Shown here piece after piece: positions 15,679 to 63,102 of a stretch of DNA of 64,000 nucleotides. The number at the start of each line of letters is the position of its first letter. Positions within the stretch are counted from its first letter, which is position 1. The position numbers and the translations under genes were made by a program. Source of the DNA: an uncultured Lachnospiraceae bacterium (GTDB taxonomy: Bacteria; Bacillota; Clostridia; Lachnospirales; Lachnospiraceae). The notes beneath the pieces were generated by a model, which saw only the letters and a list, made by a program, of their open reading frames with translations, was not told where the DNA came from and ran no database searches. The stretch lies in contig ONEK01000009.1 of the NCBI GenBank assembly GCA_900316855.1, positions 62,001-126,000 of the forward strand, in the 5' to 3' direction.

Positions 15679-15986
15679 TCATGCTATGATTTAGGTGTCA
15701 AAAGTACCAATTGGTATAACATGACATACGAATTGCTTCGCAGCTCCGCTGCTTCCGCAATTCTACAAACATCCGAAATCCGCGCACCGCTATTGAGTTT
15801 ACAATACCCGAGGGGATGCCGAAGGCATCACCTCGTAGTATGAAAGATGGAGCGTAAGTGACATCTTTCATACTCACTTTCGGATGTTTGGACTCACTTT
15901 CGGATGTTTGGCGGGTCCCAAGTCCAAATCGCTATTCGAGCAAGCTCGAAAGCGATTTGGTACATTTGACCCTTATGTCATGCTAT
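15679..15986. repeat. Composite palindromic element with terminal inverted repeats and 9-bp direct repeats
   Basis: Lies in the 621-base gap between recombinase and AI-2E gene. TCATGCTAT occurs at 15679-15687 and 15978-15986. Just inside, 16-base terminal inverted repeats match at 14 positions (GTGTCAAAAGTACCAA against GGGTCAAATGTACCAA). Nested inside are an imperfect GAATTGC/GCAATTC stem, CGAGG...CCTCG around GCCGAAGGC, an 11-bp TATGAAAGATG/CATCTTTCATA stem, a 10+7-bp stem ending at 15960, and a 20-base tandem pair (15872-15891, 15892-15911). No coding capacity. Confidence 0.75.
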
Positions 15987-20729: not shown

Positions 20730-20966
20730 CCGTGGGGTACTCTAAGCAAAACCTCCCGCTTACATGCAAGCATGTAGCGGGAGGTTTTGGGTTCCTCACT
20801 ATGTTACAAAAGCGCTCACGAATTGCTCCGCTGCTGCGCAGCTTCCGCAATTCGTACCACGGTCTTCGGAAATCGCGTCACTGCGTGCCGCTTCTTTCCT
20901 CATTCCGTGGGGTGCTCTAAGCAAAACCTCCTGCTCACATGCAAAAGCATGTGGCAGGAGGTTTTG
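20730..20966. repeat. Duplicated hairpin module flanking a CGAATTGC palindrome
   Basis: Two near-identical 60-base copies (20730-20789 and 20905-20966) each start CCGTGGGGT and contain a long hairpin (20747-20789 and 20922-20966). Where they differ inside the stem both arms change: CCTCCC/GGGAGG becomes CCTCCT/AGGAGG, and T-A becomes C-G. Between them is CGAATTGC (20819-20826)/GCAATTCG (20847-20854). The second copy probably also ends the chemoreceptor transcript on the minus strand. Confidence 0.8.
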
Positions 20967-20985
20967 TTTATTCGCCCTGAGAGCT

Positions 20986-62935: not shown

Positions 62936-63087
62936 GGTGTTCCTGTAACACATGAATTGCTTCGCGCGTCCGCAACGCTATAAACATCCCAAATCCACGC
63001 ACCGCATTGTTTCCGGATGTTTAGCGTCTTTCGGGTATCAGATTCTAATTCGGATATGTCCGGAATCAATTTGATGCCCTGAACCCT
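62936..63087. repeat. Interspersed palindromic element, relative of 15694-15911
   Basis: GAATTGCTTCGC (62954-62965), AAACATCC (62982-62989), AAATCC-CGCACCGC (62991-63005) and GGATGTTTAGCG (63015-63026) align in order with the 15.7-kb element. CGCTATAAACATCC and GGATGTTTAGCG arms can pair. Lies between bmp and the ATPase gene in an otherwise geneless 315-base gap. Confidence 0.75.
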
Positions 63088-63102
63088 TGCGTTAATAATA
63101 AC

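Follow-up and report, generated by a model that had tools for sequence, protein, structure and literature searches.

The window, meaning the whole 64,000-nucleotide stretch of DNA that was analysed, comes from the draft genome of an uncultured Lachnospiraceae bacterium (GCA_900316855.1, contig ONEK01000009.1, positions 62,001 to 126,000). Between a divergent xerC-like gene and an AI-2E permease gene, a pair that is adjacent in many genomes of the genus, lies a small, non-coding, hairpin-rich mobile DNA element with a Clostridiales-1 body (Table 1). No open reading frame of 100 amino acids runs across its 292 bp, and long chance reading frames proved to be common in the host genome when its intergenic position was examined by an ORF-overlap test. 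The 9-mer TCATGCTAT stands at 15679-15687 and again at 15978-15986, so the first-pass annotation was right that a direct repeat flanks the element on both sides; its length of 9 bp did not hold, as comparison with other copies places the target duplication at the 7 bp ATGCTAT. The extra TC belongs on the right to the end of the element (...TTATGTC) and is a chance match in the left flank. The inverted terminal repeats that had been described are present as imperfect repeats of 25 nt with 80% agreement (15686-15710 and 15957-15981).

Table 1. Features of the mobile element and of related copies in the window (window coordinates; a minus sign denotes the strand of the Rfam model)
Feature	Position	Strand	Remarks
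Target duplication ATGCTAT, left copy	15681..15687		7 bp
Whole mobile element	15688..15979	-	292 bp; ends defined from a comparison among copies
Left terminal inverted repeat GATTTAGGTGTCAAAAGTA	15688..15706	+	
Clostridiales-1 (RF01699) core, enlarged by insertion in H2	15722..15980	-	89.2 bits; gathering score 48
Closing stem GACATA	15723..15728		Partner TATGTC at 15974-15979
Hairpin H1 (GAATTGC...GCAATTC)	15730..15763		
Hairpin H2, stem CAAACATCCGAAA / TTTCGGATGTTTG, with expanded head	15766..15890		
Pair of additional hairpins in the H2 head	15810..15874		15810-15834 and 15837-15874; common to L002, L003, L005 and L010
20-bp tandem duplication ACTCACTTTCGGATGTTTGG	15872..15911		2 copies; window copy only
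Hairpin H3, basal stem GGGTC / GACCC	15914..15972		Apical part 15925-15959
Right terminal inverted repeat GACATAAGGGTCAAATGTAC, read on the minus strand	15960..15979	-	
Target duplication ATGCTAT, right copy	15980..15986		7 bp
Second Clostridiales-1 copy	20811..20985	-	88.4 bits; contains CGAATTGC
Degenerate Clostridiales-1-like copy	about 62958..63097	-	By eye: TGAATTGC, plus AAACATCCCAAATCCACGCACCGC with two mismatches

A scan of the locus with cmscan under permissive filters matched the Rfam family Clostridiales-1 (RF01699) on the minus strand, over model positions 1-166. The score of 89.2 bits, against a gathering cut-off of 48, together with a conserved, covarying three-hairpin structure, places the element in the family, a motif that Weinberg et al. 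2010 (PMC2864571) list as a probable RNA, not of the cis-regulatory kind. At the gathering score, an Rfam scan of the whole window reported only the copy at 20811-20985 and missed the element, probably because of its expanded H2. In Rfam orientation the hairpins follow in the order H3, H2, H1 and are closed by GACATA/TATGTC. The mobile form consists of this core and a tail of about 30 nt on the H1 side, in which the end sequence is repeated to give the second terminal inverted repeat; many RF01699 copies are without this tail. The likeness to Clostridiales-1 as described (PMC2864571) lies in the core, as judged from the covariance model score and the arrangement of three hairpins. The mobile form adds the second-repeat tail and flanking target duplications, and H2 is enlarged in the window copy.

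Folded as single-stranded DNA, the stretch reaches -75.2 kcal/mol compared to -34.5 +/- 4.3 kcal/mol for shuffled sequences (z = -9.6, 0/100 shuffles). Several nested palindromes are indeed seen inside the element, as had been noted, and their source is a module of about 100 nt with two nested hairpins in the middle hairpin, H2. At least four other genomic copies carry the module, and the window copy is a member of a subfamily with this extra two-hairpin insertion, which is why the nesting had looked odd for a MITE at first reading.

In the host genome (2.69 Mb in a draft of 44 contigs), BLAST with the window element gave 62 matches and with a consensus 61, in addition to 54 RF01699 matches, 35 of them over the cut-off. 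Merged, these searches give at least 71 related loci. Several contigs end within a copy (e.g. C8, C12, C26, C32, C34, C39, C41 and C42), so that the true copy number is probably above 71 and the elements can be said to break the assembly of this genome. The host copies form several subfamilies whose stems are quite unlike in sequence. Within the window, the recurrence of internal words reported near 20.8 kb and 63 kb was confirmed and traced to family members, the first being the additional RF01699 copy that contains CGAATTGC and the second a degenerate copy with no Rfam match at the gathering score. In the copy at 20811-20985, the H3 hairpin is duplicated on the other side (window 20743-20790 and 20918-20970, TAAGCAAAACCTCC...GGAGGTTTTG). 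The same genome also holds a second mobile subfamily, B, with ends GATTACAGTGTCAA / GATTAAGRTGTCAAAAGTGATTAC and its own 7-bp duplications (the second elements at L012 and L004; L087, L107).

Copies bearing a tail could be compared across genomes by their termini. The ends of mobile copies resemble GAYATAAGGGTCAAAAG...CTTTTGACACCTWMATC and, in Rfam orientation, read GACATAAGGGTCAAAAGTA...TACTTTTGACACCTTAATC in the host genome, GATATAAGGGTCAAAAGT...ACTTTTGACACCTACATC in G020 and G034, GATGCTAAGGTCAAAAGG...CCTTTTGACCCCAATATC in G082, and GATGCCAGGGTCAAAAGG...CTTTTGACACCCACATC in G349, a member of another genus in the same family. Exact 7-bp duplications surround 10 of 16 host-genome copies, with 0.75 expected from re-paired flanks, and exact duplications of 7, 8 or 9 bp surround 10/16 copies of the sister species G020, G034 and G082 (1.1 expected); inspection by eye found target duplications likewise in G349. 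The ends of the window element are shared by other copies, and the duplications vary in length over 7-9 bp, where the first-pass annotation had proposed to look for variable duplications of 9 bp. Targets are A+T-rich, often with or overlapping TATAAT-like words, and ATGCTAT was hit more than once.

Uninterrupted sites were sought by joining 11 flank pairs from G020 and G034 and searching both genomes with them. Six elements are filled in one of the two genomes and absent at the same place in the other, and in five of these six empty sites the target is present once, as 7 or 8 bp (ATATCAT, ATATAAAT, ATAGATT, ATTTACAT and ATAATAT). The ATAGATT empty site reads ATATATT in its filled counterpart; the sixth pair (L155) has no clear duplication. 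Two more sites are filled in both genomes. Members of this family have inserted with target duplication, spread and been rearranged internally, and the proposed reading of a non-autonomous, MITE-like element is borne out by the number of related loci, the shared ends, the 7-9 bp duplications and the single-target empty sites in sister species.

At the window locus itself, an Rfam scan showed the window copy to be absent from the permease loci of all 13 relatives. Only G020 among these 13 has a Clostridiales-1 match, which belongs to its own subfamily and was inserted separately, and G034 presents a clean empty site at that same insertion point (L191). The relatives at the window locus are too distant to display the exact uninterrupted ATGCTAT site; the empty sites that had been predicted in relatives are accordingly documented for family members in G020 and G034, the window-locus relatives being simply without the element. 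Across a wider set, RF01699 occurs in 33 of 99 relatives, with between 0 and more than 20 matches among species of one genus. At the level of the class, 18 of 393 genomes have it, mostly in the same family. Such patchiness would be typical of a mobile element and not of a conserved gene, although part of it may reflect incomplete genomes.

We therefore consider it very likely that the locus holds a non-autonomous MITE-like element, in which a three-hairpin Clostridiales-1 core is accompanied by a tail of about 30 nt supplying the second terminal inverted repeat, and which inserted between the xerC-like and AI-2E permease genes with duplication of 7 bp of target. Transposition would have occurred in trans through a putative DDE-type transposase recognising GAYNNNRGNGTCAAAAG-like ends, and the 7-9 bp stagger would come from the cut made by this enzyme. 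Less certainly, the conserved hairpins may serve mainly as DNA structure, in a single strand or as a cruciform. A transposase with matching ends, which the first-pass annotation suggested looking for, did not turn up. A profile search of the draft host genome with PF00872 (Transposase_mut), the one family profiled, gave no match, and derivation of the element from an IS256-type transposon was rejected on this ground. A search for the end pattern, by exact matches in the relatives, found no autonomous transposon with these ends in the drafts of the host genome and five relatives. One pair of terminal repeats does lie 0.5-3 kb apart in the host genome (C6:3989 and 5457), enclosing an open reading frame of 355 amino acids. 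This frame stands between two inverted left ends, 1.5 kb apart and with no target duplication (L048 3985-5475, G000:C6), and the pair was judged to be two truncated copies and not an autonomous element.

The nature of the conserved hairpins can be addressed through their pairing. Among 32 diverse cores, double compensatory changes occur in 29 of 32 pairs, 91.8% of cells are paired, and the covariation score was reached by no shuffle. G-U pairs are acceptable in the sense strand of an RNA helix and read as A.C on the opposite strand; on this logic 76 cores were folded without G-U pairs and the single mismatches inside helices were counted. The Clostridiales-1 cores gave 21 G.T and 24 A.C mismatches, and G-U pairs made up 2.5% of an ordinary RNA fold and 1.8% for the opposite strand. 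As a control, 29 SRP RNAs from relatives taken through the same procedure gave 28 G.T and 9 A.C, a ratio that reversed on the antisense, with 17.4% G-U. The cores differ from the SRP RNAs with Fisher p values, which are rough since the sequences are related, of 0.012 for mismatches and about 1e-105 for G-U. As the covariation is strand-symmetric and wobble pairs are almost absent, the simplest reading suggests that the helices are preserved at the level of Watson-Crick DNA, whether a DNA hairpin is under selection or palindromes undergo arm-templated correction. The internal loops are conserved in sequence (e.g. ATGAGGAAGAAG / CGGATTCCGAATG), and the core could for this reason have an additional role as RNA. 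Taken at the level of the family, Clostridiales-1 may be a long-lived class of mobile DNA and not an RNA gene, with its three DNA hairpins part of movement or regulation, a reading that we hold tentatively, as somewhat short of probable. If true, the Rfam family would need reclassifying, and selection would be acting in many genera on a structured core at the level of DNA.

It could instead be that Clostridiales-1 is a true small-RNA gene family, some copies of which were captured by or turned into mobile elements in the manner of SINEs, with structure kept for the RNA and mobility secondary. The curation of the family as RNA (Weinberg et al. 2010, PMC2864571), the strong covariation, the conservation of internal loops on one strand and the existence of copies without the terminal-repeat tail all speak for this account. 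We regard it as rather unlikely, since wobble pairs show no strand preference in either the mismatch or the G-U counts, presence is patchy within one genus, and a sigma-70 promoter and terminator scan of the window copy gave signals no better than chance. In addition, on the Rfam 5' side each mobile copy has a flank unrelated to those of the others, and therefore no upstream promoter travels with them. A plain MITE whose hairpins covary only through replication, which would correct imperfect palindromes by arm-templated template switching and leave the structure without function, appears slightly less likely still. The strand symmetry of the covariation and the near absence of one-sided changes are what such correction would leave; asymmetric internal loops and the three-hairpin order are nevertheless conserved across genera and families, though correction would tend to erase them. 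Finally, a REP/REPIN-like palindromic repeat that a Y1 (RAYT) transposase mobilises in single-stranded form would share the hairpin-rich, extragenic-type sequence, the high copy number and the DNA-like pairing. It is highly improbable because terminal inverted repeats are present and the target duplications are clean, at 7-9 bp, whereas Y1 transposition is not known to make a target duplication. For the form with terminal repeats, membership of this RAYT-mobilised class was rejected on the target duplications.

Among systems already described, bacterial MITEs such as Correia elements and RUP are short and non-coding, with terminal inverted repeats, target duplications, many copies and insertion polymorphism. 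The family described here is alike in each of these respects and differs in its conserved multi-hairpin core covarying across genera and in a target duplication that varies in length between 7 and 9 bp. REP, BIME and REPIN sequences are palindromic repeats at high copy number, as are these elements, which differ in having target duplications and terminal inverted repeats and in being larger and three-armed. MITEs mistaken for microRNA genes in plants have been discussed by the authors of Rfam (PMC4383904), and these MITE-derived 'microRNA' families, like eukaryotic SINEs, offer a parallel in which a mobile element coincides with a catalogued RNA family; the present case differs in being bacterial, and its ends and footprints point to a DNA transposon and not to a retroelement. 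In the texts found, Clostridiales-1 is treated as a probable RNA and mobility goes unmentioned. No paper on its mobility was found in the open-access literature searched, so earlier remarks on repetitiveness may exist. Clostridiales-1 and MITEs are each known, and what appears new, within the literature searched, is that here both are the same thing. RF01699 is annotated as a small RNA with a function open since 2010, a question made testable by transposing copies and by pairing that is without an RNA signature. The case also serves as a warning that covariation alone is no proof of RNA, and the comparison of G.T with A.C mismatches is simple and applicable to other high-copy orphan families in Rfam.

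Several further arrangements were observed among related copies. A subfamily in G008 consists of near-identical copies with other outer sequences, TTTACTG before the core and ...GGCAGTTTAC after it (L167, L172-L174, L176, L178 and L179), and given this difference, the Clostridiales-1 core may be mobile with ends of more than one type. About 15 fragments in the host genome retain the left (tail) end alone, broken off inside or just after H1 (e.g. L036, L049, L050, L051, L053 and L055), and right-end-only fragments were scarce, at about three in the consensus search; this excess of left ends suggests hairpin-prone deletion or abortive insertion. A series of RF01699 units without H3, about 127 bp long, is arrayed in tandem and ends in one fuller copy (G000:C34:54705-55490; L111, L115, L116 and L094); this is a local amplification and not transposition.
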